Part shown: piece by piece, positions 20,816 through 62,347 of the stretch
Numbering within the stretch: the first letter of the stretch is position 1
How the letters are laid out: each line of letters opens with the position of its first letter
Origin: Aphrocallistes beatrix
Lineage: Eukaryota > Porifera > Hexactinellida > Sceptrulophora > Aphrocallistidae
Length of the DNA stretch: 64,000 nucleotides
Reading direction: 5' to 3'
Assembly: GCA_963281255.1 (NCBI GenBank)
Contig: OY725492.1
Location: 558,001 to 622,000 of the forward strand
Made by a program: the position numbers and the translations under genes
Notes under the pieces: model-generated
What the model was told of the DNA's origin: nothing
The model's input: the letters and a program-made list of their open reading frames with translations, nothing else
Databases searched by the model: none

Positions 20816-20947
20816 CTCCCACGGTAACCTTACAGTAATTTCTTAGTTTGAAAATTATACATGTATCGTGCATAGTAGCAGCCTATGCTCTGACAATAAA
20901 AACTGAATATAAAATAATACTATTTCATTTCTTAGATTGAACACAAG

Positions 20948-22216
20948 ATGGCGGAGAGACTTCCTGAAATAGAAGATTCTGATGTTTCGCTAAAAAATTT
21001 GGAAAGTGAGTTAAAGATTGTGAAGCAGAGAGTAGAGCATGTGAAACAACAAGTTAAGGGAGCATTCCAGGAATTCACTGTCAAGTTGATACAGAGGGAA
21101 AACGAACTATTGGCAGAACTTGATGATATTCCGACTTGTATCGAGGTTAAAATAGATGAATGCCGAGATAGCCTCACACAACTGAAACAGCATAGAGCGG
21201 AAACTGAAAAGGATTTACAAACCAACAAACTGAATCAATTTCTAAAAAATCAATTAGAAAATATAAAGTTAGAGATTAAGAGAATATCTACTGAGGACAT
21301 TTCATTTCCTCATATCTCTCTACGATTGTATATGACACCCTTTGCTACAGGACTAAAAGACGCGTGTAGCATCGAGAAACGCACCAAAATCTATACAAAT
21401 AAAATGCCAGTTTGGTCAGGGGTAAAGAGCGGAAAAGGTGAAACCGAGTTAGATGCTCCGTACTCCATATGCATTGATCCAGTCACTCAGCTGATATACA
21501 TCTCAGAATTCTCTGATACTCAACGGATACAAGTTTTCGCAGAAAATGGGAACTATCATTCAACTTTGTATAATGAAGAAATAACTCATTCTAGAACAAT
21601 TAGACTGAACAAAGACTACATATACATTTCCAGTGGTCTAAAAATGTTGAAAAACGCAAAAATTTTAAAGTTAAATAAAAGAGGAGAGCTCATAAAATCC
21701 ATTTCTATCGAACAAGGAATATTTGGAATGGCTTTTCTGGCAGATAGAATCTATACTACTTCATCAGGTAGCACAACTGTACAAATATATGACGTCAATC
21801 TTAAGCACAAGAATACTATCTCACTACAAGCGAAGTCGTTTGATGACGAGATAATTGCTTGTGATATTATAGTGCGAGAAGATTCAATATATGTTCTATT
21901 CAGAGGGAGGTTAAAATGCCACTCAGAATTTATCCAATTATTTCAACTTGACGGGGCCTTTATCCGTACTATCTCGAGTGAGATGGTAAAACAAGCCTCC
22001 AACTTCTGTCTTGACAAATATAGTAATTTCATAGTGAGTGACTGGACGTCTCATTGCATTAACGTATATTCAGAAGATGGAGTTTTGATTCATACGATTG
22101 GAGAGGTAATGAGCAATGAAGCACCCTTATGTCTGCCTAGAGGTGTAGCTGTTAATGCTAGTGGGAGGATCGTAGTCGTCAATGCGAAGGCTGATAACAT
22201 GCTTCAGATCTATTAA
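20948..22216 (+). CDS. Coiled-coil protein with NHL-type beta-propeller (TRIM-like without RING)
   Basis: An uninterrupted 422-codon frame. Residues about 10-115 are charged and heptad-rich (SLKNLESELKIVKQRVEH) and predict a coiled coil. From about residue 165 the chain has NHL-repeat phrases: APYSICIDPVTQLIYISE, then NFCLDKYSNFIVSDWTSHCI, then LPRGVAVNASGRIVVVNA. This is the C-terminal layout of TRIM/NHL proteins, which act as ubiquitin ligases or RNA regulators, but there is no RING or B-box before the coiled coil, so ligase activity is not implied. A splice-acceptor-like TTTCATTTCTTAG at 20923-20935 just before the ATG suggests an upstream 5' non-coding exon. The stop is followed by AT-rich sequence with no clear AATAAA. 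The single coding exon contrasts with the intron-rich 3' half of the RNF213-like gene. I am sure that it is coding and fairly sure of the NHL call. Confidence 0.8.
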   Translation: MAERLPEIEDSDVSLKNLESELKIVKQRVEHVKQQVKGAFQEFTVKLIQRENELLAELDDIPTCIEVKIDECRDSLTQLKQHRAETEKDLQTNKLNQFLKNQLENIKLEIKRISTEDISFPHISLRLYMTPFATGLKDACSIEKRTKIYTNKMPVWSGVKSGKGETELDAPYSICIDPVTQLIYISEFSDTQRIQVFAENGNYHSTLYNEEITHSRTIRLNKDYIYISSGLKMLKNAKILKLNKRGELIKSISIEQGIFGMAFLADRIYTTSSGSTTVQIYDVNLKHKNTISLQAKSFDDEIIACDIIVREDSIYVLFRGRLKCHSEFIQLFQLDGAFIRTISSEMVKQASNFCLDKYSNFIVSDWTSHCINVYSEDGVLIHTIGEVMSNEAPLCLPRGVAVNASGRIVVVNAKADNMLQIY

Positions 22217-23227: not shown

Positions 23228-24394
23228 CTAACTCCAGATCGGCCGAATCATCCGCGTTTGTATCCAGTATTGCTTCTGCGAACTCGCTCGGCTGCCCTTT
23301 CTCAGTGTTGGGACTTGGCTTGGGATGAATAGCTCATCCTTCCTTTCGAAACGCTTGCAGCGGTCGACATGGTACCACTTACTCCCTCTTGGTAGCTCCA
23401 CTAATACATTGGATCCTTTCTGGTCGAGCGCCAAATATGGACCATCAAATTTTGCAGACAGTGAATTATCTCTCTTCCCTACTTCCAAGAAGATACTATT
23501 ACTTGGTCTAATATTCGTGCTTCTTTTGCCTTTATCATATCTTCTTTTTGTTTCGGAAAACCTCTTATCCTCATTTGACGTCATAGCCTCTGTTAATTCC
23601 TTCTGAACGTCCTGGAGAGCTTCCCAGTAATCTTGGGGCGAGGACTCTTCGGAATCCAAGTTTCTCGATCCTAAATCGGTCAGTGCTCTAGGCTGCCTCC
23701 CGAAGGTAATCATGTGAGGCGACACTTTGGTCGTTGTGTTTTTGACGTTGTTCATGAGGTAGCTTACCTCGGGTAGGGCCGAAAGCCAAACACCTTTTTC
23801 CATTTCTCGTTCCATCAGTAGGCTCCGGATGACCAGCTTCGCGGTACCAATATTCCTCTCCGCCATCCCGTCTGCTTGGGGGTGGTAGGGTGAGGAGTGA
23901 CGCTTGTGTATTCTCAATTTCTTGCAGAGATCCCTGATTTCGTGGCCGTCAACGTTCTTGCCTTGGTCCGTTAGAAGGACATCTGGAATACCATGACCCC
24001 GGAATATCCAGCCTACTCGGAATGCTTCCGCAATCGACTCCGCCGTCTGATCTCGTAGTGGTAGCAGCTCGACAATTAGGGCGAAATATCTGAACATTCC
24101 ATCGCCCCACGGCAGTGTACCTATGTCCAACGCAACCCATGCGCCTGGTTGGGCCTTTGCTCGACTGAATCGTTCCAACGGTTGTTTCGGGTCTATGTTG
24201 GGTTTCGTTCTCTGGCATATGGCACATCCTTTGCAGAATATTCTCACATCACGAGCCATCTTATACCACAAATACGACCTTTTCACCAGCCCCAGGGTTC
24301 TCGCCTGACCAAAGTGACTCTCGTTATGCACTTTTTCTAAGACTTCTCGTCTGAGGGTCCTGGGGATAACAATACGGTCACCAAGGTAGAGCAC
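23228..24394 (-). pseudogene. Ty3/gypsy integrase region of pol
   Basis: A 388-codon frame. It begins with the zinc-binding HHCC segment (HNESHFG, about residues 23-29, then CKGCAICQ about 54-61), followed by the catalytic core: ALDIG about residue 93, LLTDQGKN near 140, and HPQADGMAERN near 173 with the glutamate. A C-terminal GPY/F-type stretch (FDGPYL) follows. No chromodomain is visible. The fragment starts inside pol and is not joined to an intact RT, so it is a relic even though this piece is open. Confidence 0.85.
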
Positions 24395-24542
24395 GCCCCC
24401 AGTAACTTGAGATGTGCTGATGAATTCCTGAGTTGGCCCCTTTCAATAATCCCACATCCGAGGAGTTGCTGGCTGGCATCGAGTACAACTTCATCGCTCT
24501 TCTGCCCTCGCTCAATTTTACTAATCCAACCTCGCAGGGTAT

Positions 24543-25055
24543 TTACTTCCAGGACTCTGTCGCCGGTTCCGTCCGGTTTAGGCTCTTGTGTTTGATAGTG
24601 TTCCACACTCCTGTTGTCCCTTCATCGGTTTCTTCCGTGTAGTAAACCTTGTTTTCGAAGTGCTGCTCGTCATTTACGTCAGTGTCCACTCGCAAATTGG
24701 GAGCGCGACTAAGCCAGTCTGGCAGTTTATTATCCTTTCCTGGACGATAAACTACTTGGTACGGGAGTTCCTCCAACTCCATCAGCCATCTGGAGAAGGT
24801 GTGCCGTGGGTCCCTTTGACCTCTCATCCACCGTACCGGGTTATGATCTGAAATTAGGTAGATCTTGGGTGAAGCCCTCAAGTAGGTAATCCACTTTCTG
24901 GTAGCCGCGACCAAGGCCCAGGCTTCTAACTGGCATGCAGAATAGTTCTTTCGTGTGTCGCTTAGTGCCGAGGAAAAGTAGTTGATGGGTCTGAGGATAC
25001 CAGTTCGTTGATCCTTCTGGGATAATACCGCAGCTACACAATATGCCGAAGCCAC
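24543..25055 (-). pseudogene. Ty3/gypsy RNase H fragment of pol
   Basis: A 170-codon frame with the RNase H signatures of Ty3 pol: AAVLSQKDQ near the start, the INYFSSALSDTRKNYS segment, ACQLEAWALV with the catalytic-type glutamate, and ISDHNPVRW with the aspartate. It ends in the tether that precedes the integrase. Immediately upstream the frame shifts into an RT remnant, and a TSLDVAS-type RT motif runs directly into the RNase H start. This shows that most of the RT palm is deleted. Confidence 0.8.
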
Positions 25056-25090
25056 GTCCAGGGAAGTGAAATACTTCGCCTTTAGCTTGT

Positions 25091-25330
25091 CTAAGATTGT
25101 TTGTATATCGTTTGTAAGTACGCGTCCTTCTTTGTCACGTCGTTCACTTTTCTGTAATCTATCGCGAAACGTAGGGTTCCATCCCTCTTACGTACCAAAA
25201 CGACATTGCTGGCCCATTGTGACTTTGAGGGCCTGCAGATATCGTTTTCCATCATTTCCTGAACTTGAGATTCAATTTCCTTTTCCCAGCCAGGCGGAAA
25301 TCTCCGAGGGCGCACTTTGACTGGGGCCAC
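25091..25330 (-). pseudogene. Ty3/gypsy reverse transcriptase N-terminal fragment
   Basis: A 79-codon frame containing RT fingers/palm block 1 phrases: PSKSQWASNVVLVRKRDGT and FAIDYRKVNDVTKKDAY. It then goes out of frame. The catalytic Y-x-D-D block is not found between here and the RNase H fragment, so the enzyme is inactive. Confidence 0.8.
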
Positions 25331-25466
25331 CTCACCAGTGTCAATATAATGCTTTTCTGATTGGGTACGTTCAGGTTTTTTTGGGTTGATGGCGAATCGA
25401 TCTGAAAATTATTCGCAGAGCTGTTTCAATCTATTACGCTCCTTTACGTTTATCGCTGAGTCTATA

Positions 25467-37787: not shown

Positions 37788-40700
37788 ATGGATCGAGGCA
37801 ATAGATTTTGCGTTGATAAAGCCTGCAAGGTTCATGAAATGATGCCAAATGGTTTGCCTGCATTTAATGAACGCTGTTGTGTATGTGGTGGACCTCTAGC
37901 CGCTAAGGAACCTGATGAACCAGTGGTAATTAAAGAGCAGATTGTTCCTAAATCACGTCGAACAATACGTAAACACCACTTTTGGAAACCAACTTCTAGT
38001 AAGTCTCAAAAATCGATCGTCAAAGCAGATATAGCGATTATCATTTTTATGACAGGCATATTGAAAAGCGATTATGAGAAAGTTGGAGGTAAGATTTCCC
38101 TCAAATTCACACAAACTCAATTTGGAGAACTAAATTTGGCAATTCAAAATCCTTTTAATTCTAGAATACTGCATTATGAAGGGAATGATTTTATTATACT
38201 GGATAATATCATCAAACTTGGTGCAAAAATTATTTCTTACATTGAAAAATCTGAAAATTTTCTTTCAATACCCTATAAATATTACTTGAATGAAGATGGA
38301 GAAAACCTGTTTTTGCCACAAGAAGATTGCTCGAGAACTTTAATAATAGACAATTCCAATTTTTCAGAGAGTAATGTAGTTACAAAATACGACATTATTA
38401 TCCTACCTGATGGAACACATAATAAATCAGAATTTACAGATCCTCTGAAACGTTTGATGACATCATTCAATCTATTCATTCCTCCAATAAGAGACCTTTC
38501 GCGATCGTCATTTATGGAAATAGGCAATAATATTCGAGATATTTTATTTCCACTTTGTTATGGATATTTTAGTGAGAAACGATTTAAAACAAACAAAAAT
38601 CGTTTGCTTTATGACTCAGAGGAAAAAATGCATGAATTATCAATAGATTTGTTAAAGAATTGGTTAATGAAAGCTTTAAGTAATGATAGCTCCATCCCAT
38701 TTCATTCTAAAATTTTCCTACTATTTCTGACATTTGAAAAAGAACTTATTCAACCATTTTCCGATGAGTTATTTCTGTATTTATTGCACACAATGAATTC
38801 TCAAAAATTTTCAATGCTCCTCCATGATCAATCCCAACTGAATGACTTAATAGTATATCAATCTAATATGACTTCATCACCTCTGATACTTCACGATGCT
38901 ATGAAGTATATTGCTGAACAGGAGATTGAACTGTTGATCAATTTTCTTCCACTTTATCACATTATTTTTGATTCTCAAAGGAAATATGAAGTCGCATGCA
39001 ATAAACATGAATTTGAAAATAATGACTTTTGGGGTTTACCTTCTGACACAGAATTTCAGTGCAATAACAAAATAGCGATATCAATAATCCAAAATGCAAT
39101 CGAAAAATTTTGCGAAGTCGATCCTCTCTTAGCCAATTCCATCATAGTTCTATCAATTAGTGATGATTCTTTTCCACAACTTCTCGAGGTATTTCCCACA
39201 CATCTTTTGTATTTCATGTGCGTACTGCTGTATCGTGTTAAGAAATGGCCATGCTTCATAGAACAAGACTACAAACTTCGTGAATCTGTATTTATGAAAT
39301 TTTTACACCTGAGCATGAATGAGGAAGATATTTGTCAAGCATGTGACGTGATATTCAAAATGCTTGCTGTGATCAATGATGAGGATGAAACGCAACACTG
39401 TATTCACCTGGAAGAATCCAAACTTATTCTGCGAGTTTTAGCAAAATTATTGAATTTATTTGATGATAATTGCCCACAATTGTTATCAGAGGAATCTTTT
39501 CACTTGGCTTGTGGGAAGATATTTCACTTAAAATCTGCGTCTGCTCTTCTTAACATGCTCAGAGGATGCTTAAATCCTGATGTACTAGCCTCAAATTACA
39601 AATCTGATTTTGTGAAAGAAGTGTCAAATATTTGGGAGTTCTTATACAAAATACAATTCCCTCAACCATACAAGTTTCTCTACGCTGTTGATCAGTTATT
39701 TATCAGAAAATTAGAAGTACAGGACTTAAGAAGCATTCTAACTACTTTGGTTGACATATGTAGTATAACTTACAGTTCAGTCAGTTATTCAGATAGTTTG
39801 AATTATTCTCTCTGCAATGAAGTGATTTCGATATTGGATCAAACTCAAACTCCTGAACAAGAGTATGAACTGTGTGTCAGATGCTTAGTTGAAGTTCCAA
39901 TTGAACATTTTAACATGATTGTAGAAGTGTTTGCCAAGATCTTAGAATGCATTTCAAAACCACTAAAATCAGATCCAGTAAAGCACATTCTATCTGCAAC
40001 ATGGTGGCCTAAATTCATCAATTATTGTCAACCGAAACATTTTGAAGAACTTGATTATGATGATGCAGCCTCTTTAATTGAATTAGTTATAAGTACTGGC
40101 AAATCTCTCGTCACTTCGTTTCAAGATCAATCTATCAAAACTAAAAATTCAGAACTTATTATTGAATATGATCACAATTTTTTCAATTTATTGCAATCGG
40201 TTTCAGGAAAAGAGCATGAATTTTCTGTTCGAGCTACGTTCGACACATCCATTCTACTTATCAAAGATCAATTAGAAACATTTTTACAATTCCATCGACG
40301 AATGAATGATTTGAAAACATTGTTAGATTACACCAAAACACAGATGAGCTCTCAAATTCTCTCTGATGTTCTAACAATTGAATTTGAAGATATGTCTATA
40401 TCTTCGCTATGTCATAATTCAGTCATTTTACCTCATTCAAAACATAAAGATTTCCTTAATAATGAGGAATTTGTCCTAATGTTAGAATCTTTACCTGATC
40501 TTCTTCAATCTCAATTTTTCATGACTACATTTTCAAATACATTTCAAGAATATTTTAAGGACAATCAATTCGAATTCTTTGAATTGAAAATTATTCTAGA
40601 CAAAGTTTGGTACGAATCATCTCTATTTGTGTCTCAGATAATTCGCGACCTTCTCTTTATGAATATTCTATTATCAGACATTGATAACCATTTTGGAATT

Positions 40701-43700
40701 TACAGAAGAGATTCAGATAAAATGGAATCTGAAATCAGCAACCTTCTAAGAGGAATAAATACTGGAGCTTCGAATGATTATGATAAAGAGGAAGATAGAT
40801 CTGAAATCTTAACAAGAATCAAGCATTATTTTAAGTTAGTGCAAGTACGGAGCATTGCTGAGAATATTCTCGAGGTAAAAGATGCTTATAGTATGAACGG
40901 CGATTTTAGTACAATCAAGTTTATAAATGAGCTAAATTTGGAAGGGAAAAGATTAAAATACATTTCAAAAGAAATGGTTAAAATTGGGACTAAATTATCA
41001 CATTGTGACGATTTACATTTTGAAATTCTGAGGCAAATGATAGTGTGTATTAATCTCTTCCATTGGATAATCGAAAATCTGAAAAATCAACGCCAATTGG
41101 ATAATTTCACTGACTTAGCACTGAATCAGAGTAACAATTCTACTTTTGAAGTTAATCGCATTACTTGCTTCAAAGATGTCTGTAGGATATTCGCACCTTT
41201 TATTTTTGAACGTCGAAATGAAACGGACCAAGAGAGCTTCTTGGTAATGCTCAGTGCTGTTCACAACAATATTAAATCGAGCGAACTAGATATGTGCACC
41301 ATTTTAGGGATGAGTGAAGACTGTGCGAAAGAGATTTATTTTGACTTTTGGAAGCAGTTGCTCCTTAGCCACACTTCAATTGGTGGTAATATAATTTCCA
41401 AGATTAAAGAGATATTATCAAAGGGAGTCTTTATCGTAAAATTGGAGGAAGATTTCAAGAATGTTGAAGATGTAATGTTTATCCAGGCTGGTGAGTCAAA
41501 ATTCTACCCCTTACACGAACTGAAAGAGATGCAGAGTGAAGTTGTACTAATTACTTCTGAGAGACATGATGACAAAATAGGGACACAATTTCAAAATATT
41601 TTAGAGGCTTTAATGAAGTTTTCTGAAATAGTATTGAAATTGTACTTATCAGGCAATACCTTCTTCAGAAAAACAAGGGAGAACTTATCCTACCGTTTCC
41701 ACTCAATTCAAATAATTGAAGAGGATACTGCCTTTCTTGAAAAGGAGTATGATAGTTGGATAAATACCCTTGAAAAAGCACGTGATAAACATTACTATCT
41801 GAATTATTTCACTTCTTCTCAAATAATCGCAATACAGATGAGTTTAAACTCATATTTCAAAAACAAAAATAAAGAATTAGACCAACAGTTTTTCGATTTA
41901 CTATCTTTGATTAAAGAAAATTTGACTATTGAAGATTTGAAAACAGTTATTAAACGATTGAATGAAGGTTCTCGTTCTATCACTAATTCACTCACCGAAC
42001 CGTCCCTTTACCGTCAAGAATCTGATGAGGATCCTATTTTGTCTCCTAAGTGCAATCTCTTTGGTGATAATTTTGAATTTAGTCAAATTCATACTAAAAA
42101 ATTTGGCGCCCCTTATCAAATAACAGCATCTTCAGACTCAGATGAAGGTGCAAAATCAGAGTTACAGCAAAGTTATGAAAAAGAAACAAAAGCGAATCTA
42201 AATTCTCTAGATACTTTGGAGAGTATATTCGAAAAATTATCAACTAATTCAAAGCATCAAGCAAGAAGAGATTTCCCAGCCACATTTAAAGAAGCAGAAC
42301 CCAACCTATTATTCGTCACAAGTTCAAATATTTTAACGTGTCTACTATCCATTTACATACCATCTAATTCAGATTTTGAATTCCCTCAAACTCATGAGGT
42401 ATTGCTATGCTCTGAAGACACAACTTTGGAGGAAGTTGAAATATTTTTGAGACGCGCTTTAAAAGATCGATATTTTTATATTTTTTGCATTGCTTTCATT
42501 GAAAAATTGAGATATGAAGTCGCTGTTGGCAGCCTAACACTATTCAAAGAATATGCCAATCGATCGAATCAAAACTCAAATTATCGTTTAGTTTTTATAT
42601 GTTCAGATGAATGCAAAACATCTTCATATATGGCAACTGCTTTTGCAAGGTATACAAGAATCAGTCCGTCAGATAAACACATTGACAAAAAAATGGTTTT
42701 TAAGATAATTTCCCAATCTTCTGATCAAACAATCTCTAAAAGACAAGCCTGGCAGGTCGATCCAGACAAACGTTACATCAGAATTGTAACTTCTAAATCA
42801 TCTGGCAATGGGAAGTCTCTCACCGTATTAAGGCAGGTGGACGAATTGAAATCAATTTTTCATCCTCCAGACATTCCTTCAATATATACTACCATTACCA
42901 TCCACGAAGGTGAGGGATTTGAAGATAAAGTAGTTCAAACTTGCATAAAATCTCAGCAATTAGCGAGTGATTATGGAAGAATATATCATTTTGACCTCAT
43001 CTCGGATTCCGATAAGCTACTAATACCCTTTTTATTCAAACTTCTCGTCACAAGAACTCTCTGCGATTATTCAGGAAATATTTGGCGCTGTAGTAAAGAC
43101 AATTATTACATGATCGAAATCAACTTAAAGTCACGAGCACCCGAATTGGTTCGTTTTTTAGATATATTTCCTACCTGGGATTGCTTATCACCAAATGAAG
43201 CAATCAATATTGAGGAAAAGTCAACATTATTAGGGTGTCAGATGACAAAATTTGATCAGCTTGAATCTAAATCTGATATTTACAGAAGAACCCATGAATA
43301 TCTCTCTAAGTTAAAATCAGGATCTAATATGGATAAATATAAATTTAATCCGAAAAATAGTCCTAAAATTGATTTAAAACTTCTATTGGAATATTTAAGA
43401 CTTGAAACTCCTTCTTGGAGTGAACTGAAACACTTTCTCACTTTCATGAATCACCAATTAGTAGCTTGTGAGAAAAATGTATATTGCCAATCAGTTGATT
43501 TAGATAGTAACTGGCGTGGATTCAAAAAGTTTGTAATTGATTGTTTGATACTAATGACCTTAGATTTCACAACTCCTTCCCTCAGGATTTCGTTACAGTC
43601 TTCTATACTATCAGATGAACTTTTAGGATATAGCATCGATTCTGAAAGAAAATGGGAACAAAAGAAAAATCCTTACATCTTTTTCAATGAAGATATGCAA

Positions 43701-46700
43701 TCAATGACTTTTTTTGGAATATCTATTGATAAAAACTTGAACCAATTAAACGTATTTGGTTCGAATCCACAAAAAGAGAAAAAGGTAATTAGCAAACCAC
43801 TCTACAATGTTCTTGAAAAGAACAGAGTAGATCTAGGAGATGATTGCAATAAATGGGACCGATCGAAAATGATCAACGTTTTGGCTAACGTACTAGGAAT
43901 ACAATCTCCCATTGATCCTGATCCTTATTATGTGCTCACTATTGACAATCTTAAAAAAATGCTCGCCATCCAGATGCGTTTCCGTAGTAACATTCCCGTC
44001 ATCTTGATGCGTGAAACAGGCTGCGGGAAAACTCGTTTGATTAACTTTATGTGTCAACTACAAACCAAAAGTCGCGATATTCAGAATTTCATCATTTTCA
44101 AAATCCATGGTGAAATCTACAAAGCTGATATAATGGACTATTATCAAAAAGCTCTAGAGTTAGCAAAAGAGAATGCTAGCAAAAATATTGATACAATCCT
44201 TTTCTTTGATGAAGTGAACACTAGCTATTCGATTGGCTTGATAAAAGAGATTCTTTGCGACAGAAGAATTGATGGTGTAAGAATTCCGAATGATTTACGG
44301 TTACAGTTCGTAACTGCATGCAATCCTTATAGAAAACACACTGAAGAGATGTTGAAAAAGCTAACCTCTGCTGGTCTAGGAATGTTCAATACAAGTGATA
44401 AAGTTAGGGAACATTTTGGAAAAATCCCACTACGAGAACTTGTGTACCGAGTTCTTCCATTACCAGATAGTCTATTACCATTAGTTTGGGACTTTGGAAC
44501 ACTGGATCCTGAAAGTGAGCGTTCTTATATTCAGAAAATTGTTGACACCCACTTACCCCACGATAAAAGTTCAAGTCCTTTGAGCAATGCCATTGCGACA
44601 GTTCTATTATCTGCTCAAATGTTCATGAGAGATAAAGATGATGAATGTTCTTTCGTTAGTTTGAGAGATGTTGAGCGAACATTAAAAGTTATGCTATGGT
44701 TTCAAGAACTTTTACCTAAGATTGATAAAAGCATTGATACTGGAATAAATTTGGATACACGAAGTCTTATACTCTCCATAGCAGTGTGTTATAGAGCTAA
44801 ACTTGTCAATAGAAAGGATTTTGATAAAGATAATTTCAAGTAAATTCGATTATCCTCTGGATAAAATTACAAATGCAAGCCTAATTTTCAAAGAGATAAA
44901 AGCATTCCAAGACGTTCTTGTGAGTTTAATGACAATCGGAGAGCATATTGCAAAAATAAGGCATTGAAGGAGAATTTGTTTATGATGTTCGTTTGTATTC
45001 AATTGAAAATTCCATTATTCATTATTGGTAAGCCAGGAACATCCAAATCGTTAGCAAAACATATCATTAGCCACTCACTGAATGGAGATTTTAACTTGGA
45101 TGGAAATAAAATAGCAAAATACACACAAGTCTATATGCGATCTTACCAATGCAGCCAATTGACCACATCCAAAGAAATTCAAAACTTATTTGAAAGCTGT
45201 CAGACCATTCAAGAGGAGAGTGCCGCTGACTGTGTTGCTTGTGTCGTTTTGGATGAAGTCGGTTTAGCTGAAGATTCTCCTAGTTTACCTCTCAAAATAC
45301 TTCATCCTCTCCTTGAAGATGGCATTAACGAAACAAATGGACAAAGACCAAACATTGCTTTCATAGGTTTGTCCAACTGGGCTCTTGATCCAGCTAAAAT
45401 GAATCGGGGCATTATGTTACGGCTTGAAGATCCTACACTTGAAGATATTGTGGATACCGGTCAATCAATAATTAATTCTAGTGAAAAAGAAGATATCAAT
45501 TCTTTGCGTAAACTTATCCCTAACATCCCAAACCTATCTAAAGGATATTTGAAATTAATTGAAAAGCAACAAAAAGAAGGATTAAAGGATTACTTTGGAC
45601 TTCGAGACTTGTATCACCTTATTAAAATGCTGAACCAACTCTGTAAGGAATATGGAACTTTCAACACTAGAATTTTTAATCATGCGATATTGAGAAACTT
45701 TGGAGGAATTACCGGGATCAATGTTATCGATGTTTTTAAACATGATCTACCCGATCTAGGATGTACTGAAATTGGTCCTCATTCAGATATTTTATCTCTA
45801 ATTAGATCAAGTTTACTTGGCAAATCGAAATGGAATCTTCCCGAAGAAGAGAGAGAGAAGCAGAGAATGGAGAGGTCAAGGTATCTTCTTCTATTGACAG
45901 AAAATTACGTTGCTTTAGATATTTTATTTCATTCAGAAATCTTAAAAAACGATGCTAAAGTGATATTTGGGAGTAGTTTTCCTCTCGATCAAGAATACTT
46001 CGGCATTTGCCACACTATTAATCGTATCAAAGTATTCATGGAAACCGGAAAAGTCGTAGTATTGACCAATTTGTCCAATGTTTATGAGAGTCTTTACGAG
46101 CTTCTCAATCTCTTCTATGTTGATATTCTAGGCAAGAGTTGGGTGGATATCGGAATTGGTTCGCAGCGAATTAAATGCCCAGTACATCCTGACTTCAGAT
46201 TGATAGTCATTGCAGATAAAAACACTGTCTTTGACCGATTTCCACCTCCTTTGATCAACAGACTAGAGAAGCATAACTTGACATTTTCTACTATACTTGA
46301 AGATGACATTATTGTGAAGAACATCATTACTTTGTCCAAATGGGTTCAGAATTTCGTTACTATTCACAGTAATGATTCTAATGAATCATCATATAAATAT
46401 ACTCAGGATAAGTGTTTTATTGGGATTCAGAATGATACTCCATCATTTATAGTTTACTCTTCAATAAGAATTTTAGGTTTAAAGGGAAAGGAAAAGGAAA
46501 GTATGGGGAAAATATTAGATTATTGCAAATTGGAGTTATTGAAGATTGCTTCTCCAGATTCAATTCTTCGAATACGCGAAAGTCAGTTAGCCGAAGAGGC
46601 TGATAAAATTTACGAAGATTACTGTACTCTCAAATTATTTGATCTTGCGAGCTACTTGGAAGAATTGCCTAATACTCGAGAGTATCATAACCAATCAACT

Positions 46701-47207
46701 CCATATTTATCCTATATTACAACATATTCTACTCTCCTGACGGAATTTGATATTGAGAAATTGAGAACTAAGCTAAATGTATTATTATATAGTGAAGTCA
46801 AGATTACCTTCCAAAATTTATCTCAGTTTACATCAGAACGGGAATTCATTTTAGCAATCAAAGAAGACATTCAAATCATAGCTAATCATGAATCAAAGGG
46901 AATTATCATTATTCAATGCGAAAACGGTCAAGCCAACTTTGATCTCGTGTCATGTGCTAAATACAAAGTGATGGAAATAATTACAGAAATGAGTGCGAAA
47001 CTAAACTCAAATTATTATTTTGTTTTCATCACACAATTTTTATTTCATCAGGGTCTTTCAAAACACTCAAGCTTCTGTGGTGGAGATTGGGATAGTGTTT
47101 ATATCGATGAACTTCGAGACTCTTCTCATTATTTGTTACCTCCATTCAATGAGCTTACCAATAATTCTGTTGCTCAAGTATTCAATTATCAGCATTTCAA
47201 TAATACG
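37788..47207 (+). CDS. RNF213-like giant AAA+ protein, exon 1 (stalk and AAA+ core)
   Basis: This exon codes for about 3,140 residues. It starts with a Cys-rich zinc-ribbon-like segment (FCVDKAC residues 7-13, CCVCGG about 34-39) and a long helical stalk. Three P-loops follow. SGNGKS near residue 1676 matches the ATP-binding AAA2 of the RNF213 core. RETGCGKT at 2075-2082 with FFDEVN at 2139-2144 matches AAA3. GKPGTSKS at 45027-45050 with VVLDEVGLAEDSP and NWALDPAKMNRG matches AAA4. RNF213 is a dynein-like AAA+ ubiquitin ligase of the cytosol and lipid droplets. The first P-loop glycine of AAA3 is arginine here. The frame is broken at 44841 (TAA). An adjacent frame encodes conserved-looking linker from about 44839 to 44954, and the original frame resumes near 44955 (KALKENLFMM). 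This needs a +1 and then a -1 change, by sequencing error, mutation or recoding. The exon ends at ACG|GTACGT. The start is the first ATG and matches the start of the minus-strand paralogue. Confidence 0.9.
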
Positions 47208-47538
47208 GTACGTTTGATAGTGTGATTTCTTACGATTAATATTAATCAAGATATTGTTCTTAAAATGAGTGCTGGTGATATAGTCAACTGACTTGCACAG
47301 TCAGCCAAAGTTTCTGCAACAATTAATTTTATTTCATTGATTTGAATAAGATAAATTTGTTTAACTTTGAATCGGCATGCATTAATGGATTCTAGTACTC
47401 TTCTAGTTCATAACGCAAAATATCTTGAAAATGTATTGAAAATATGTACTATATAACCCAGATCTAATAACCAAAAATTCTTACTATTAAAACTCAACTA
47501 ATGTATATCTATATATCTATATCTATATCTATATATAG

Positions 47539-53414: not shown

Positions 53415-53562
53415 GAACAAATGGCGGTGTATTCAGTGCGTACATCTATTTATCACTCATTTTCTAACTGAGAGCGCATTTAAAGAGATAAATTCGAAGA
53501 CTAATACGGTCCGGATTCAGTCAATTTCTATATTTGAGACAGCCTTCAATACTATATCAAAG
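53415..53562 (+). CDS. RNF213-like exon 6
   Basis: The acceptor is TTCTATGTAG. The exon completes a split arginine codon and reads NKWRCIQCVHLFITHFLTES.. to FETAFNTISK. The donor is AAG|GTAGTT, phase 0. Length and phase fit the neighbours. Confidence 0.7.
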
Positions 53563-53675: not shown

Positions 53676-53805
53676 AAACGTACTTTTATAACGGTAATTA
53701 AGGATGAGAATATCCCTAAAGTTGAATGTAAATCCAACATCAATAAATGATATTGAAACTCTAGTTTCGGATGAAATTAGAATAATTGAACTGTTTAAAC
53801 AACCG
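53676..53805 (+). CDS. Possible extra RNF213-like exon (frameshifted, uncertain)
   Basis: A coding-like stretch reads KRTFITVIKDENIPKVEC.. and hits TGA at 53748. Skipping one base, it continues DIETLVSDEIRIIELFKQP. The acceptor (TTTTAAG) and donor (CCG|GTTAAC) are weak. It may be a real exon with a one-base change, a decayed exon or chance. Confidence 0.25.
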
Positions 53806-53877
53806 GTTAACAGACAACAACAGTAATTGTCAACAATATTCATAAATTTATTTGTCAAATTACATGAATATAAGAAT

Positions 53878-54343
53878 TCGCTTTTTTGCGGAGCGGGGCT
53901 GGCGGACGCTTTGTGTCTGCCAGAAGCGTTCTTTGAGTGGCTAGGCTCACATTGATTAATTATAAGGTAGATAATATTATCTCTAAAACCTTGTACGTCT
54001 GACTTACTGTTAAATCGATATCAATCAAAAAATCGCCAAATTTGTCAAACTTTCAATTTTTGATGCGTAATGATGTCATCATTGTAATAATCATTTTTTT
54101 GATAACAGTTGTATCGTATGTTATTAAAATTTCAGCCTTCCATAATAGCACCTAAAATGGCTGAGTTATAGTCGAAAAACTGAAATTTCTAATTATAAAA
54201 AAGATGTCATGATGGCATAATTCTATGATGAGCCGTCATTTCCGTATGAAGTCTTTGTGGAACTTAGTTAGCTAAAAGACTAAAAAAACAAAAATCAGTT
54301 CTCTGTGCCTGGCAGTTTCTTGAATCAATCCGCTACAGATGGG
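53878..54343 (-). mobile_element. H1 Helitron-like element in an intron
   Basis: The 3' hairpin is reduced (GCTGGCGGACGCTTTGTGTC), but the body (AATCGATATCAATC, TTATTAAAATTTCAGCCTTC) and the end TTGAATCAATCCGCTACAGA are clear. It lies between exon 6 and exon 7 in the minus orientation. Confidence 0.65.
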
Positions 54344-54572
54344 ATTTTCCAGGAATGGGCTGCATCATTTCAACTTTAAATCATATACTAGTGAAGTCCT
54401 ATAAATTCGAGGTCTAGACTATAACTAGAGAAACTCTAGGTAGAATCGAGGATTTTCAACCCTTAGCCATGGAGCCAATTCTATTTATAGTTTGACCCCT
54501 ACAAAATCAATTTTAACATAAATTATGAAATATATACAAATTTACTATAATAACACATTTTATGTTTCACAG

Positions 54573-54658
54573 ATTTCTCCTCGAGAAGTAAATTTTCATT
54601 CCCCAGAAAGTACCCAGTCCATCTTGGATACCCTCAACTCCATGAACAAAGGAATTTT
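54573..54658 (+). CDS. RNF213-like exon 7
   Basis: The acceptor is TATGTTTCACAG. In phase 0 it reads ISPREVNFHSPESTQSILD.. to NKGI, and it ends TTTT|GTAAGT in phase 2. It sits at the position just before the RING in human RNF213. No cysteine pattern is present. Confidence 0.7.
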
Positions 54659-54911
54659 GTAAGTTGATTGTTTGCTTGAAAACATCAATAAATGCTACAC
54701 TCGCTAAAATGGACGAACACATACATAATAACATTCTCTACATTATTAATCGTTTCAATAATATTGCTTCATCATCATGGATGATGACATTTGATGCTCT
54801 AATAGTAGCATTTTAACTCTTTAATCAATTCAAACACCCAAGCAAATATTCACACTAAATCACAAAATGAACATTTTTAGTCGAATACTGAGTTACAACT
54901 TATCTTATTAG

Positions 54912-54968
54912 GTCATTAAAAGTAGAAGATTTAAATCACAAATGCGAAACATCGAAAGAAGGTTCCAG
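54912..54968 (+). CDS. RNF213-like exon 8
   Basis: The acceptor is CTTATTAG. The exon codes for LSLKVEDLNHKCETSKEGS and ends CCAG|GTGATT in phase 2. It is only 57 bp long. Its phase matches exons 7 and 9. The single cysteine cannot form a RING. Confidence 0.6.
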
Positions 54969-55127
54969 GTGATTAATATACATTATATTTTGCACACATT
55001 ATATTTTTTAAAATGAATCAAGTATTGTACACTGTCAAATTATTCATACAAGCATATATAATGTGATTAGAAACCAATTATTTCGAGTAGGGATTAACTT
55101 GAAATCGAATTAGTGAATGTTTATATA

Positions 55128-55377
55128 TAGTAGAACCTAGATAAGACATACCCTTTCGGGAAGGAATTATTAATACGTACTATCTGTAAGTACGTACTAG
55201 CCGAGTTTGTACTAAGTCGTAGAAATCTATATTATAGAATATAGATGGATTTTGGTTCAGAGAAATAAGTACGGTTTAGTAGGTACTTATTTCTCTGAAC
55301 TAAAATCCATCTATATTCTATAATATAGATTTAAGAACGTATTATCCGAGTGGGTACGTACTAACCGAGTTCTACTG
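55128..55377. mobile_element. MITE with TAGTAGAAC ends and a 50-bp internal hairpin
   Basis: The ends TAGTAGAACCTAGATAAGAC and, reverse complemented, CAGTAGAACTCGGTTAGTAC lie between TA dinucleotides. Inside, 55223-55331 is a nearly perfect hairpin (AAATCTATATTATAGAATAT ... ATATTCTATAATATAGATTT). It lies in the intron between exons 8 and 9. Confidence 0.75.
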
Positions 55378-55391
55378 TATATACGTATATA

Positions 55392-56275
55392 CAAGTGCGC
55401 TTTCTTGCTTGCGTTGCGCGGCTAGCGGACACTGTGTCCCATTGGCCGCCTGGGCTTAATTATAAGGTAGATAACATCTCTGCAGACTTACTGTTATAAT
55501 TGTTATCACTCGAAAAATCACAAAATTTATCAAATTTTCAAATTTTGATGCGTAATAATGACGTCATAACAGAATGATGCGTCTTTATTTTTTGATGATA
55601 GTTGTATCATATGTGAGGAATATTAATCTACATTGACTATTCAAATTTCAGGTTTTTATCACTTGAAATAGCTGAGTTATTATTGAAAAACTGAAATTCC
55701 TAATACAATAGAGTTCGCTTATTAGCAATTGCCTTATTAGCAAGATTCGCTTATATTAGCAAGTTTTTTAAGGTCCCAATGGACCAAAATGTATAAGTAT
55801 TAATTATGTTCCCTTATTAGCAAGTTCGCCTATAAGCAAGCTTTTCTCGTGCAAAACACGACTTGCTAATAAGCGAACTCTACTGTAATAAAATGGTGAC
55901 AATGACGTCATAATTCCATGATGAGTCGACATTATCAGACATTTCAGTTTTTCGACTATAACTCGGTCGTTTTAGGTGATAGAAGACTGAAATTTTATTA
56001 GAATGTGTATATTAAGATGCTTCACATATGAGGCAACTATTATCAAAAATGAAGACACTCCATTTAGTCATGACGTCATCATTACGCATTAAAACTGAAA
56101 AATAGACAAATTTGGTGATTTTTCGAGTGATATCTATTAAAACATAAGACAGACGTATTTAGAGATGTCATCCACCATATTATAAATAACTGTGAGCCTA
56201 GGCGCCAACAGTGTGCATCCGCGGACACAGTGTCCGCCAACCCCGCAAGGCAAGAACGCGAAGCATGCTTATATA
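55392..56275. mobile_element. Two opposed H1 elements with a nested MITE
   Basis: 55392-55930 is a minus-oriented H1 (AAGTGCGCTTTCTTGCTTGC, then the H1 body). 55940-56275 is a plus-oriented H1 remnant ending in AACGCGAAGCATGCTT. A MITE at 55706-55885 splits the first. After it, up to about 56425, comes another element whose end TTAATAGTAAGGA is the reverse of the H1 5' start. Confidence 0.6.
55706..55885. mobile_element. MITE with CARTAGAGTTCGCTTATTAGCAA ends
   Basis: The left end CAATAGAGTTCGCTTATTAG and the right end, reverse complemented (CAGTAGAGTTCGCTTATTAG), are inverted repeats of at least 23 bp with TA on both sides. TTAGCAAG units repeat inside. It interrupts H1 exactly. Confidence 0.85.
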
Positions 56276-57010
56276 TATATATATTAACCTCCTTTGCCCC
56301 TATAATGTGTTGCGCCATTTCCGGTTTAAGCCTTTTAGGGCGGTAAGCCATAAAAATTCAGGGTATTTACTATAAATAGAAAAAGCCCAAGCGATTCAGG
56401 GGATAATTATTCACCGAGGTTAATAGTAAGGATATCGTTAGATTATGTATGAATTAAAATTTAAGACAAATCACGGCGTAGAGGTCAAAACTGCAGAAAT
56501 TGCAAAAAGTTTGGACGGGAATGACGTTGAAATTTGTAATTTTACACCAAACCCCTCCAAGCACTAGAGGAGGCAATTTTTACCCAAAATGCCCACTTTT
56601 CCCTCAACAACTTCAAATTCAAATTTAGACAAAATTCCCAACCTCAAATCTTTGGTAGTAGCAAAACTCTAAGGTATCCATAATCCCAGGACAAAAATAC
56701 ACACAGAGTCTCTTCACAAATGACTGGTTTCGATTTTTGAAAAATGTATTTTCAAGTAATAATGTCACTTAATGAATACCTTTTGTGTTACCAAGAATTT
56801 GAGGTTGAGAAAATTTTATCAAAGTTTGAATTCAAAGTTATTGAACCAAGTGTGTATGTTAGGTTAAAAAGGTCTTGGAGTGTTTTGGTGCAAAACTACA
56901 AATTTCCACATTCTCATACGAAAGTGATCTTTTTTAACACATTTTCAGTTTTCACCTCAACAGCGTGATTTAACCTTAAATGAGCATGAATTAATCTTAA
57001 ATGAATTTAG

Positions 57011-57274
57011 CTGTCTTCGATGCTTATTTGAGTTGGAATTTCAAAATCACGCTGTACAGTTCTTTATTCAAATTTTAATGAAGATTATCTTTACATCTGC
57101 TACTCAATTTCATGAAGATTTTATACATCATTTTATTGAATTTATTTTCAACGATCAAGCATTTAATATCAGGAAAGAGTCAATGTGTAAGCTTTCTTTG
57201 TTCAATTCTAAAAATATTGATCCTTCTTCATCACTTCGCTGTATGCTCTTACAATATCTACTCAGACATTGCAG
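57011..57274 (+). CDS. RNF213-like exon 9
   Basis: The acceptor is ATGAATTTAG. The exon completes a serine codon and reads CLRCLFELEFQNHAVQFFIQ.. to LLQYLLRHC, parallel to the human segment that directly follows the RING ('FVDLVSTICF', 'LLSLLF', 'VILKLLLKYS'). It ends GCAG|GTAATT in phase 2. Confidence 0.8.
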
Positions 57275-57393
57275 GTAATTTAATTAAATACATGTATGTA
57301 TATATTTCTTTATTGCTTTAGAACACATTTTAAATTACTATTATGATTTAGAATATTATATTAACATTTCGATATTTTATTTACTTTTTCTAG

Positions 57394-57505
57394 GTATGAA
57401 ATCATAAACAATCAGATTGGAGATCACATAGCAAAAATATGTTCGGATTCAAAAGAAAAAATCCAAGCAGAAAGCCTGATTATTGTTGTTCTACAGAGTT
57501 GGGAG
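57394..57505 (+). CDS. RNF213-like exon 10
   Basis: The acceptor is TTACTTTTTCTAG. The exon reads RYEIINNQIGDHIAKICSD.. to VVLQSWE and has a GAG|GTTTGA donor, phase 0. Its position matches the human post-RING helices ('LYMLFINCLEDSI'). Confidence 0.75.
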
Positions 57506-57869
57506 GTTTGATTCTTAAATGTAGAATATTCAGTCGCGTAGCTAGAATAAAATGAGTGACAGTACAACTTTAGGATAGGACAAAAAGGGTGTCTTTTCTA
57601 TACTTAACTAAATGTTCCCATTATCTAAAACCTTCAGTTTCTTCTAGTCTAGTAACACTAGATTGAAAAATACTAGTATCATTAATTTTAGAATTTTCAG
57701 TCATCGAATGGTCATTAAAATTAAGCGGCTGTTGATATAATGGTAAAGAAAAGTGGCCAACTCAGTTGCCCTAGTTCCGATGACCCTTGAATTTATGTAG
57801 TAGTCTGTTGAACTGTAATTCACCAAATTCAAAAATACGTATGTAACTTTATCACGAACATTTTTGTAG

Positions 57870-58334
57870 GATTACCATCACTATCAGTGTAAAATACAAA
57901 ACAACTTTGGAATCAACTATGTTTTATCACATCTGATGAATACTGACCTTTTAAAACCATTTTCATCTAAGGATGTAACATATGAATTGATCAAATCTGT
58001 TGCAATAATCAAGTTTGTAATATATTGGATTGTGAAGTGGAAAGTTGATCACTTTTTGTTTGACAAGTACATCAACAGTCAAAGGTTTTCATTCAGGTGT
58101 CTGGAAAATTATCCAAGATATGTGAAAGCTCCAAATTTAGTTTCATTAATCGATGAATTTGAGAGGCTTATACAAACGACTAAAATTCCTAACATTTCGA
58201 AAACAATTCAAACATTTTTATTAAAAGCACTATATTTTCATGTTGGATATGGATCATTGCTGAACTATCAGAACGATCCGAAAATGGAGTATTTTTTCCC
58301 GAAAGTATCTACTACATCTGGAGATGGATCAAAG
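57870..58334 (+). CDS. RNF213-like exon 11
   Basis: The acceptor is ATTTTTGTAG. There are 155 open codons in phase 0 (DYHHYQCKIQNNFGINYV.. to TSGDGSK) and the donor is AAG|GTATTT. It contains a helical segment with RCLENYPRYVKAPNLV, in the E3 module region of the family. Confidence 0.8.
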
Positions 58335-58556
58335 GTATTTGAGTTTTAATTTTATTTATTAATGAAAAGCGCATCAAAAATATTATATTTAGAAAGTAGG
58401 CTACTAATGGGGAAATTAAATATTTTAAATCTTATATATTGTCTTTAAATTTTACTAAGAGACAGTTCCATTTTGATTATACCTATGTGAGAATAGGCAA
58501 TCGAATATCGATTCTTCCAAATTCCTAACACCATTCAGACTATTATTTTTCTACAG

Positions 58557-58640
58557 GGAACCTATCTTGATCTATTTTATGGAATCGATCTATCATATCA
58601 GAAAGTACTTCATATTCGTAAAAAAGACCAAAAGTCACAG
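58557..58640 (+). CDS. RNF213-like exon 12
   Basis: The acceptor is TTTTTCTACAG. The exon reads GTYLDLFYGIDLSYQKVL.. to KKDQKSQ in phase 0 and has a CACAG|GTAATG donor. It is in frame with both neighbours. The human equivalent, 'YGDEYKALRDAVAKAV', has a similar place and pattern. Confidence 0.7.
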
Positions 58641-58994
58641 GTAATGTTTTAGTTCTATAACTAACATTAGTTTAAAATGGCATCAATATATATTTACAAT
58701 ATTCTATATTATTAGAACGGAGGGATTGAATACAAAAATGCACTCCATTATATCAAAATTCATACCTATTTAGTATGTAAGAAAAATTGATGAGTTAGAA
58801 TATCTTCTTGCTACTGATAGCCAAGCACATATGCACATATAATGCACAACTTAATGCATTCACTCAGCCACTATCGTAGTTTAGTACCTAAACGTGACCA
58901 TCAAGATCCTTTGAACATATACACATATATTTGGGATGCTATGTAAATGTTACACTTCACTTAAATTATAATTAAAAAATTGTGACATTTATAG

Positions 58995-59126
58995 ATGGGT
59001 GAGAAGAAAATGACCAGAAATATAATTTTTTCGATATTTACCAAATGTGTTTTTAATCGAATCAGCAATGAGAATGGGTTAACACAGAGACAGGAGCATA
59101 AAAAGATCTCAACAGATGGATTAAAG
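58995..59126 (+). CDS. RNF213-like exon 13
   Basis: The acceptor is CATTTATAG, phase 0. The 44 codons include KMTRNIIFSIFTKCVFNRI, and the donor is AAAG|GTTAGT. It resembles the 'YFLLTLFREVAILYRS' helix region of human RNF213. Confidence 0.7.
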
Positions 59127-59686
59127 GTTAGTTAGAAAGCATTTCACTCATCCCACTTATTAGTGTGCTTTCTAGACTAGAGCTATGATCCAAATTAAGA
59201 GTATAGGTGCACAGTTCTTAATTAAGTGTTGGCGTCCTGCTGGCTGTACCTACTCCCCTAGGCACAGTTTAAAAGATATTGATTTTTTTGTGATGATGAC
59301 ACATTGTATGATTTTCAGAGATGCCTGTTGAATATGTTATACGTATTAGCACTATGTTAATTCGTTCCACATGGTACATCACCTTATTGTTGGACTGATG
59401 GTATAAAAAGCTACCTATCTTGATAATGTATTCCATAATATGAAACTCAAGAAGAGGAATAACACTACCCTAGAAATTGTGTCTTCCAGTAATCAGCGAC
59501 CCAATATTTGGTATTACCTTATTTTAAGTGTTTTTATCATGGCCTGTGGGTGAATCTTTGTTTCTTTGTCCATAGGTATTTAACTTAGCAACAATTAGTT
59601 TTGAATTTCATTTCATCGAATTCGAATATCTTGGAATTGTAATTGATAATATTCTAAATTCATATAACAATGTTTATCTTATTTAG

Positions 59687-59956
59687 AAAGAACTAACACA
59701 ACTCACTAATAGTCTTCCTAAACAACCCATCAATTTGCAATCTTTGGCTGCTGACATTCTGGATAATAAACTATTCAATATGCAGATGTCAATATCTGAA
59801 GATACACACCTGAACACTGTCTTTATTGCGGGGGTATTGTGCCATGTTGGGATTCTTCTACAATACACCGAGCATTCAAAATTTTTGCAACCTCTCACAC
59901 AAATTCATTACAATCCTTCATCTCTTAAAAATAACGTTTTTCCTGCAATCGAAGAG
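59687..59956 (+). CDS. RNF213-like exon 14
   Basis: The acceptor is TTATCTTATTTAG. The 90 codons, phase 0, include NTVFIAGVLCHVGILLQ and end SSLKNNVFPAIEE. They parallel the human 'AIHAAAVLLCGQNELLEPLKNLAFSPATMAHAFLP' region just before the RZ finger. The donor is GAG|GTATTA. Confidence 0.8.
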
Positions 59957-60054
59957 GTATTATTTTTAGATGGTAGAGATATTTTGAATTTAAAAATCTA
60001 TATTATATATGGTTGAAATAGTATCCATTTTTTGCATTTTATTTTTTAATACAG

Positions 60055-60113
60055 AAATATCTTTAAATGGAAATTTTCGTTCGATAACTCTTGAAACTGA
60101 TGACGGACAGAAG
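60055..60113 (+). CDS. Possible small RNF213-like exon (uncertain)
   Basis: TTTTTTAATACAG is a good acceptor and AAG|GTATAC a good donor. Read with two leading bases it gives ISLNGNFRSITLETDDGQK and would join exon 15 in phase. However, exon 14 ends in phase 0, so its entry does not fit. The peptide has no cysteines and is not an RZ finger. Confidence 0.25.
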
Positions 60114-60592
60114 GTATACTCATAAATGTTTTTGCAAATATGAACAAAAACGTAGATTTCCCAGAATGAAAAGATGAAATACACCATTAATAATATAGTA
60201 TCATTTTAACCCAATTTATTAACTGAAATGGTGGGATCTTTTTAAGATAAATGTCCTGCAGATTTAAGATGTGAACTAACTATGTATTTTCTGAGGAACT
60301 GGGGATAATTTATGATAAAAAGTGGTTTCAATGATTTATGACGTTAGTTACTTTGGCATTCCTAAATCCAATATTAAAAATATTCTATTCTATGCACTAT
60401 TAATTACGGATTTTATTTATGATGAAATCATTGGTATGTTACTATTGTCAAAAATTTGCATTAAATTGTCGGTCAACATACTGACAGTGCCGCTATTAAA
60501 ACACTTAACAAAGATGCGATGTTTGTAATCCATCATGTATAAGTGTGAAAATCGGGTATACACAGAGAAATATCAAATATAACATATATATA

Positions 60593-60720
60593 TATGTTAC
60601 AGGGTATCTGTAAAATCAGGGTAATTGTAATTACCCTGATTTTTTTAGGGTAATTGTAACTACCCTGGTTCAATCAGGGTAATTGTAATTACCCTGATTT
60701 TACAGATACCCTGTAACATA
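60593..60720. repeat. Perfect 128-bp inverted repeat made of smaller palindromes
   Basis: The 48-bp arms (60593-60640 and 60673-60720) are exact reverse complements. Each contains ATCAGGGTAATTGTAATTACCCTGAT, itself a near palindrome, and the 32-bp centre repeats GGGTAATTGTAACTACCC. It lies in an intron upstream of exon 15. Confidence 0.9.
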
Positions 60721-60835
60721 TACATACCTAAGTACGGATATATAACGCAGTCCACGCTATAAGGCAATATCATGAGTTGCATTTTAAATGAGACTATAGA
60801 AGCAATCTGGATTGATACGATTCTTTTTTTGATAG

Positions 60836-60984
60836 ATTTCTAATTCATCTGGATCAAATATATACTCGTACAGCTCAAAGAAATCAAAATACAGTGAAAG
60901 TTTGCATGCTGGTAGAACAGTATCCTATAAGCCACATGTTCTTGGAGATCCATTTGGAAGACCTAGGATACCAAGTAGCATAAG
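60836..60984 (+). CDS. RNF213-like exon 15
   Basis: The acceptor is TTTTTTGATAG, phase 0. It reads ISNSSGSNIYSYSSKKSK.. then VSYKPHVLGDPFGRPRIPSS and ends ATAAG|GTCAGT in phase 2. HVLGDP matches human 'TGHVLGNPQRR', which lies immediately after the RZ finger. The finger itself is not encoded here. Confidence 0.8.
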
Positions 60985-61596: not shown

Positions 61597-61871
61597 AGAT
61601 TTGGCGGCGATTTCAGTTGCTCTCATCCGAGCGCTAATGCATAGCATATTTATATGGACTTTACATACGAAGCATTTTAACATACCTGGCACTGTTGGGC
61701 AATTGGTTGAACCTATTCATCATAATACATACTCGCAATACTTCTACCTTCATCTTGTGCAGGATATCATTGATGTAGCCACGATCAGTAACAAGACATT
61801 CGAAGAGGCTGTTCTCCTCGTGCACTTACTATTTGATAGTATTGTCAATGAAAGATCGTCACCGTGTGGAC
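61597..61871 (+). CDS. RNF213-like exon 16
   Basis: The acceptor is ACTTTTTTCTAG. The exon completes an arginine and reads DLAAISVALIRALMHSIFIW.. to EAVLLVHLLFDSIVNERSS, closely following the human 'PPVVFLLIRLLTHLALL .. IGVVHLVLRRLLQEQ'. The donor is C|GTAAGT, phase 1. Confidence 0.85.
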
Positions 61872-62347
61872 GTAAGTTGTTTCGACTAAGTTCTATCTAA
61901 ATTAGCATACTATTGTAAATAATAATCATGTCTAATAGATATCAAATACTATTAGATACCTAGTCAAGTCAGGTTTTAACTAGGATAATCCTATTACTAC
62001 TACTACATACTTAAGGTTTGATACTAAGGAATAATAGTTATACTCATTACAAAATCGTATAGGAACTACAGTACAAAAATGGCTGTTGTTTCCTGCAAGA
62101 GATAATTACTTGTAGAGGTGTAACTACAAGTATATATGTAAATTTGTATCCAATTCATCGATTTCTGATATGTGCTAAATCATTACGATTACGCAGCATT
62201 TCATACAGTATATCAGTGGTAAATATATCTTACTGCAAATAGTGGTAAAAAATTCTCAGAAATGGAATCAACTTCCACACTTTTGAATGTCGCAAAATAC
62301 ATATGCATAGTGTCATACTCTGTATTATTTGGTTTTATTATTAATAG

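Follow-up and report, generated by a model that had tools for sequence, protein, structure and literature searches.

We have found that the gene at the 3' end of the window, the stretch of 64,000 nucleotides of Aphrocallistes beatrix DNA analysed here (C6:558001-622000), encodes an RNF213-like protein without the two fingers of the RNF213 ubiquitin ligase. The RING finger is absent from this gene, as is the RZ finger with its zinc ligands and catalytic cysteine, and we consider that both have very probably been lost. The initial annotation had proposed such a protein, and pattern searches, Pfam searches and an exon-by-exon comparison with the C16 paralogue from the same genome (100.5 Mb in 28 contigs searched) confirmed it. 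Given a probability of roughly 0.55, our main reading is that the window gene belongs to an expanded clade of RNF213 relatives without ligase chemistry, which would work through their ATPase body, either alone or with active copies.

The window gene lies on the plus strand and extends from 37788 beyond the window end (Table 1). The partner copy C6_550 can be aligned with it starting at the first Met, and the copy C6_644 shows similarity up to 64041, with more blocks to 66396; the 3' exons past 64041 were recognized by eye. The RNF213-type AAA core at 44865-47222 matched the PDB RNF213 chains in phmmer with a best E of 2.3e-140, and the joined shell of the window gave no RNF213 match at E <= 0.1 in the same program. 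The exon phases and several exon ends and first codons were read by hand, and counterparts of the exon immediately 5' of the RING slot were recognized by eye in C6_644 and C1_8448. The exon that the initial annotation had started near 53676 was dropped as unsupported: it is not conserved, DNA similarity to C6_550 ends at 53704, and C6_644 has no match there, while the exons at 53415-53562 and 54573-54658 join directly in phase. Further upstream, we noted open frames in several frames resembling a retrotransposon reverse transcriptase and integrase (23228-25408, minus strand; by eye) and a 426-codon open frame resembling an NHL-repeat protein (20936-22216; by eye), a partial copy of which follows the window at 68549-68791.

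Table 1. Features of the window gene, in window positions.
Feature	Position	Strand	Basis
N-terminal and AAA part, to in-frame TAA (44841-44843)	37788..44840	+	open frame; Walker motifs
AAA3 Walker A (RETGCGKT) and Walker B	within 37788..44840	+	motif reading
AAA4 core and following part, single open frame	44865..47222	+	phmmer to RNF213 chains; dN/dS 0.248 to C6_644
e7, shell exon before RING site	53415..53562	+	C6_550 and C6_644 matches; ends by hand
e9, shell exon immediately 5' of RING slot, ends in phase 2	54573..54658	+	C6_550 match
e10, stub exon in RING slot, 57 nt, phase 2 on both sides	54912..54968	+	same length in C6_550, C6_644 and C6_1175
e11, shell exon immediately 3' of RING slot	57011..57274	+	21 genome matches
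e16, exon before RZ finger, ends ahead of RZ first half	59687..59956	+	23 genome matches, 15 in RZ-less clade
e18, remnant of RZ second-half exon, no Cys, HVLGDP segment kept	60836..60984	+	C6_550 and C6_644 matches; phases
e19, shell exon after RZ slot, ends approximate	61608..61873	+	C6_550, C6_644 and C16 (E 1e-20) matches

The comparison of paralogues, which the initial annotation had suggested as a check, showed that C16 keeps both fingers and where those of the window gene stood. The joined exon model of C16_3778 aligns through both RING and RZ with the RNF213 chain 6tay, which we take to be mouse RNF213. In the RZ finger of 6tay, the residues C, H, C, C, C and H stand at steps 0, 4, 11, 20, 23 and 32, and the identical six residues at identical steps are present in C16. 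These spacings fit C4451, H4455, C4462, C4471, C4474 and H4483 as given in excerpts of PMC12075652, according to which C4462 is the RZ nucleophile of RNF213 and autoubiquitination is abolished when the four zinc ligands or the nucleophile are changed. Between the window exons and the C16 gene, we found five clear one-to-one matches (E 6e-8 to 1e-20). The C16 RING is encoded by one exon of 192 nt (L062:3795-3986; length read by hand) with phase 2 on both sides; a 117-nt version, obtained when the script stopped at an inner GT, was rejected, losing the last RING cysteines and breaking the phase.

On the one hand, the RING slot of the window gene is occupied by a stub of 57 nt between homologous neighbour exons. 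The phase continuity described in the initial annotation holds at both finger sites, but a further small exon, 54912-54968, with phase 2 at either end, has to be added at the RING site. Stubs of the same length were read in C6_550, C6_644 and C6_1175, and stubs of 78 and 87 nt in C1_8448 and C1_8139, respectively, the latter by hand where the script gave none. Eight RZ-less copies were tried, and all six readable ones have the stub; C1_8203 and C6_692 showed no stub exon in the stretch examined, and their stubs are taken to sit further upstream. When the stub is read together with the start of the next exon (junction codons by hand), His-x-Cys followed by Cys-x(1-2)-Cys appears in five of the six copies read, namely the window gene, C6_550, C6_644, C6_1175 and C1_8139, and C1_8448 shows the same Cys pattern without the His. 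This pattern could represent a small metal site or could arise by chance in a short stretch. Elsewhere in the genome, C10:1859830-1860012 is a partial copy of the window exon after the RING slot (61 residues, 84%).

Two RZ-bearing copies, C4_1467 and C6_3215, have neither RING nor stub, and their flanking exons join directly over short introns (C4:1465801-1467500, L066, and C6:3213701-3215400, L067). Therefore, we regard the loss of the RZ finger as the telling step. If the placement of C16 in the tree described below is right, the RING was lost at least twice, and multiple RING losses are in keeping with excerpts of PMC11549300, in which the RING is reported as dispensable for ubiquitylating bacteria. 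Taken together, the copies suggest more than one loss of the RING and a single loss of the RZ.

On the other hand, the RZ finger of C16 is divided between two exons: the pre-finger exon continues into the first half, and the next exon starts at the catalytic-Cys codon. In the window gene, the pre-finger exon ends with FPAIEE at 59956, ahead of the finger and in phase 0, and the following exon starts in phase 0 with Ile at the catalytic-Cys codon and contains no Cys. These two exons, 59687-59956 and 60836-60984, join in phase 0. The second-half exon was read in four of the 15 RZ-less copies: those of C6_550 and C1_8448 likewise start with Ile and have no Cys (first codons by hand), and in that of C6_644, Gly takes the first codon and two Cys are present, neither of which belongs to a CxxC. 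Downstream of the finger, the window gene, C6_550 and C6_644 retain the HxLGxP segment; the window exon matched the HLLGNP segment of C16 at E 0.28. Across the genome, the pre-finger exon has 23 matches, and the RZ first half directly follows it in 8/8 outside the window clade and in 0/15 inside. As judged from these exons, the RZ first half is removed by an earlier splice donor, and the second-half exon has lost the zinc and catalytic cysteines. Accordingly, the loss of the catalytic zinc modules that the initial annotation had considered is borne out at the exon level against C16, and the RZ loss is common to 15/15 clade copies. Near this slot, a conserved-looking stretch at 60055-60113 was rejected as an exon because it hits a stop in the phase set by the exon 59687-59956, and the intron before the RZ-remnant exon contains an inverted repeat (60587-60726, 86% match to its own reverse complement). 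Two more RZ first halves without a pre-finger exon match are present on C19.

A tree was built from the AAA cores of 25 of the 28 AAA-core loci, with three C15 loci left out, and one RNF213 row. The 15 RZ-less copies formed one group with support 100/100, and the C16 pair joined this group at 100/99; according to a warning of the tree program, this join may be a long-branch effect. The RZ labels depend on pairing an AAA locus with the first RZ match that follows it on its own strand, at a distance of about 6 to 61 kb; C6_3107 was labelled as RZ, although its AAA core (C6:3107483-3109843) has no match to the RZ, to exon 16 or to the post-RING exon in its vicinity, and the row C4_1946 consists of two matches of different frames joined. 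None of these weak points affects the clade of 15. Five RZ-less copies, with 78-93% identity to the window gene, are located on C6, and ten, with 64-66% identity, on C1 at 8.08-8.45 Mb, where C1:8085728-8451197 forms an array of ten such genes in a single orientation. We also observed an RZ-bearing shell without a nearby AAA match at C4:1471161-1472235.

A protein without the RZ finger would be unable to form the ubiquitin thioester of RNF213. With an ATPase core and shell remaining, such a protein would most simply form coats or scaffolds and have no ligase activity, and we give this action of the RZ-less proteins about an even chance. ATP would drive the assembly of the body on a target, such as a microbe, a vacuole or a lipid droplet, and the RZ-less copies would either act on their own or serve as binding subunits together with RZ-bearing copies. 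RNF213 has been reported to oligomerise on lipid droplets, and excerpts of PMC12075652 report that its ligase is activated when the AAA core binds ATP. Excerpts of PMC11549300 report that T. gondii vacuoles still acquire a coat of RNF213 when its RZ is dead, that coats on three pathogens require the ATPase activity and that those on bacteria require the RZ finger; in that text, a ligase-free coat is known for one kind of target only. A further-reaching version, in which the whole clade is a ubiquitin-independent defence machine of 15 copies that builds giant coats driven by ATP without any ligase, with the RING exon rebuilt as a minimal Cys/His knuckle, appears improbable to us.

RZ-bearing and RZ-less copies occur together in one genome, which also suits a brake, in which RZ-less copies become part of RZ-bearing RNF213 assemblies, whose ligase activity they dilute or block as dominant-negative regulators. 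Excerpts of PMC8831215 describe RNF213 disease variants as dominant negative. However, fifteen diversified copies exceed the need of a simple brake, and we consider this explanation unlikely as well. As far as the sequence goes, it fits each of the roles that RZ-less copies may have, whether acting alone, helping active copies or restraining them.

In the AAA4 module, Walker A is present in 25/25 copies and the Walker B pattern in 24/25 (not in C16_3798). In AAA3, Walker A was seen in 16/25 and Walker B in 19/25, but only one frame was read, and the absences are not evidence. The window gene has the AAA4 motifs and the AAA3 Walker B; its AAA3 Walker A, RETGCGKT, has Arg for the first Gly, and C6_692 has GETGCGKT. 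Between the window gene and C6_644, dN/dS was 0.248 for the core (744 codons) and 0.269 for the other exons pooled (1267 codons); against C6_550, it was 0.256 (740 codons) and 0.51 (1052 codons); the pools include some short matches that are spurious (13 and 17 codons). The RZ-remnant exon alone gave 0.64 and 0.44 (42 and 47 codons). By these ratios, the core and shell are under purifying selection, and the value of 0.51 outside the core against C6_550 points to a weaker recent constraint on the window copy. The N-terminal part of the C6_550 paralogue lies on the minus strand at 3-1859 of the window and shares 70% identity with the window gene across 608 residues; along it, dS drops from 0.89 to 0.19, reaching 0.12 in the AAA core, and this fall suggests gene conversion.

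When the window gene is compared with C6_550 and C6_644, one inserted base and, about 120 bases further, one deleted base appear within 44820-44970, and these produce the in-frame TAA; a 54-nt intron could remove it, or an assembly error is possible. This stop would fit pseudogene relics, a decaying clade whose fingers were lost along the way, as would the shorter open frames of C6_1175 (844), C1_8275 (1038) and C1_8358 (1256) and the stops that interrupt matches in C1_8159 and an exon match in one C1 copy. Nevertheless, we think that decay of the clade is quite improbable, considering that C6_550, C6_644, C6_692 and most C1 copies have open frames of roughly 3200 codons, that dN/dS is 0.25-0.27 and that slot-specific change lies behind the loss in several copies. 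The suggestion of the initial annotation that the fold is used differently is therefore favoured over decay by the constraint on core and shell and by the AAA4 Walker A in every copy, and the actual use would be that of an ATPase body.

Another catalytic site seems just as improbable as decay: the shell would bind an E2, and ubiquitin would be transferred via a different cysteine. Several cysteines are kept in the stub and next exon in 6/6 copies read, and a Cys-His of the pre-finger exon is common to the window gene and C16; however, Pfam scans of 10 open frames showed no known ligase domain, and in excerpts of PMC12075652 deletion of the RZ abolished RNF213 activity.

The statement of the initial annotation that no C3HC4 or RZ-type Cys/His pattern occurs in exons or introns held in the six-frame pattern search and the Pfam searches. 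A RING spacing pattern, which recovers the RING of the C16 paralogue as a positive control, found no match in six frames of 47000-72000 (the window and following bases). In genome-wide Pfam searches, no match fell inside the window gene for PF00097 (83 matches at E <= 0.001), for PF20173 (RZ; 20/20 candidates scored) or, among the matches listed, for PF13920 (best 150 of 186 candidates); as a control, PF13920 gave one of the two C16 RINGs over the cut-off among the matches listed and PF00097 neither. The C16 RING exon alone retrieved generic RINGs, not RNF213, in phmmer, and in the genome both C16 copies and three weak matches elsewhere. The HMM check proposed earlier, performed with home-made RING and RZ HMMs on six frames of the window region and pieces of C6_550, C6_644 and C1_8448, gave nothing significant (best RING E 0.08), but the RING and RZ second-half HMMs have low power. 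When the C16 members were removed, the RZ first-half HMM recovered C16 (E 2e-10), the RING HMM missed it (E 0.08, below a chance match at 0.06) and the RZ second-half HMM missed it as well (E 3.1). Therefore, the claim of loss rests on the exon-by-exon comparison. A divergent or intronic RING or RZ in missed exons would benefit from this low power and from the intron of about 2 kb after the stub, but it is very improbable given that the pattern search was empty, that both slots hold phase-matched exons without the needed cysteines and that the RZ first half is readily found elsewhere in the genome.

As a separate observation, COX1 at C28:3140-4480 has 11 in-frame TGA codons; accordingly, we read C28 as a mitochondrial contig in which TGA encodes an amino acid.

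The sister genes provide a natural experiment on the functions open to RNF213 when it is no ubiquitin ligase. In excerpts of PMC11549300, parasite-vacuole coats form without RZ activity and bacterial coats do not, and natural RZ-less and RZ-bearing copies in one genome make the role of the ATPase body testable by comparison. If our main reading is true, the RNF213 family would be a set of giant ATPases, with the ligase as one kind among them. Our searches of open-licence papers listed no description of RNF213 relatives lacking both RING and RZ. The window gene resembles mammalian RNF213 (mysterin) in its AAA core and, as seen through the C16 paralogue, in the layout of its shell, where the slots for RING and RZ follow each other as in RNF213, but its RING exon is a stub and its RZ finger is lost. 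The C16 copies are its nearest relatives in the AAA-core tree outside the clade and, unlike it, keep both fingers. The expansion of RNF213 in symbiotic bivalves is a similar gain of copies in an invertebrate, whereas the excerpted text of PMC9993606 describes no finger loss. A further likeness is to the RZ-dead and RING-deleted laboratory mutants of RNF213 in excerpts of PMC11549300 and PMC12075652, which also have an ATPase body without ligase activity; in contrast to these mutants, the clade is natural, multi-copy and under selection, and both of its fingers are gone together.
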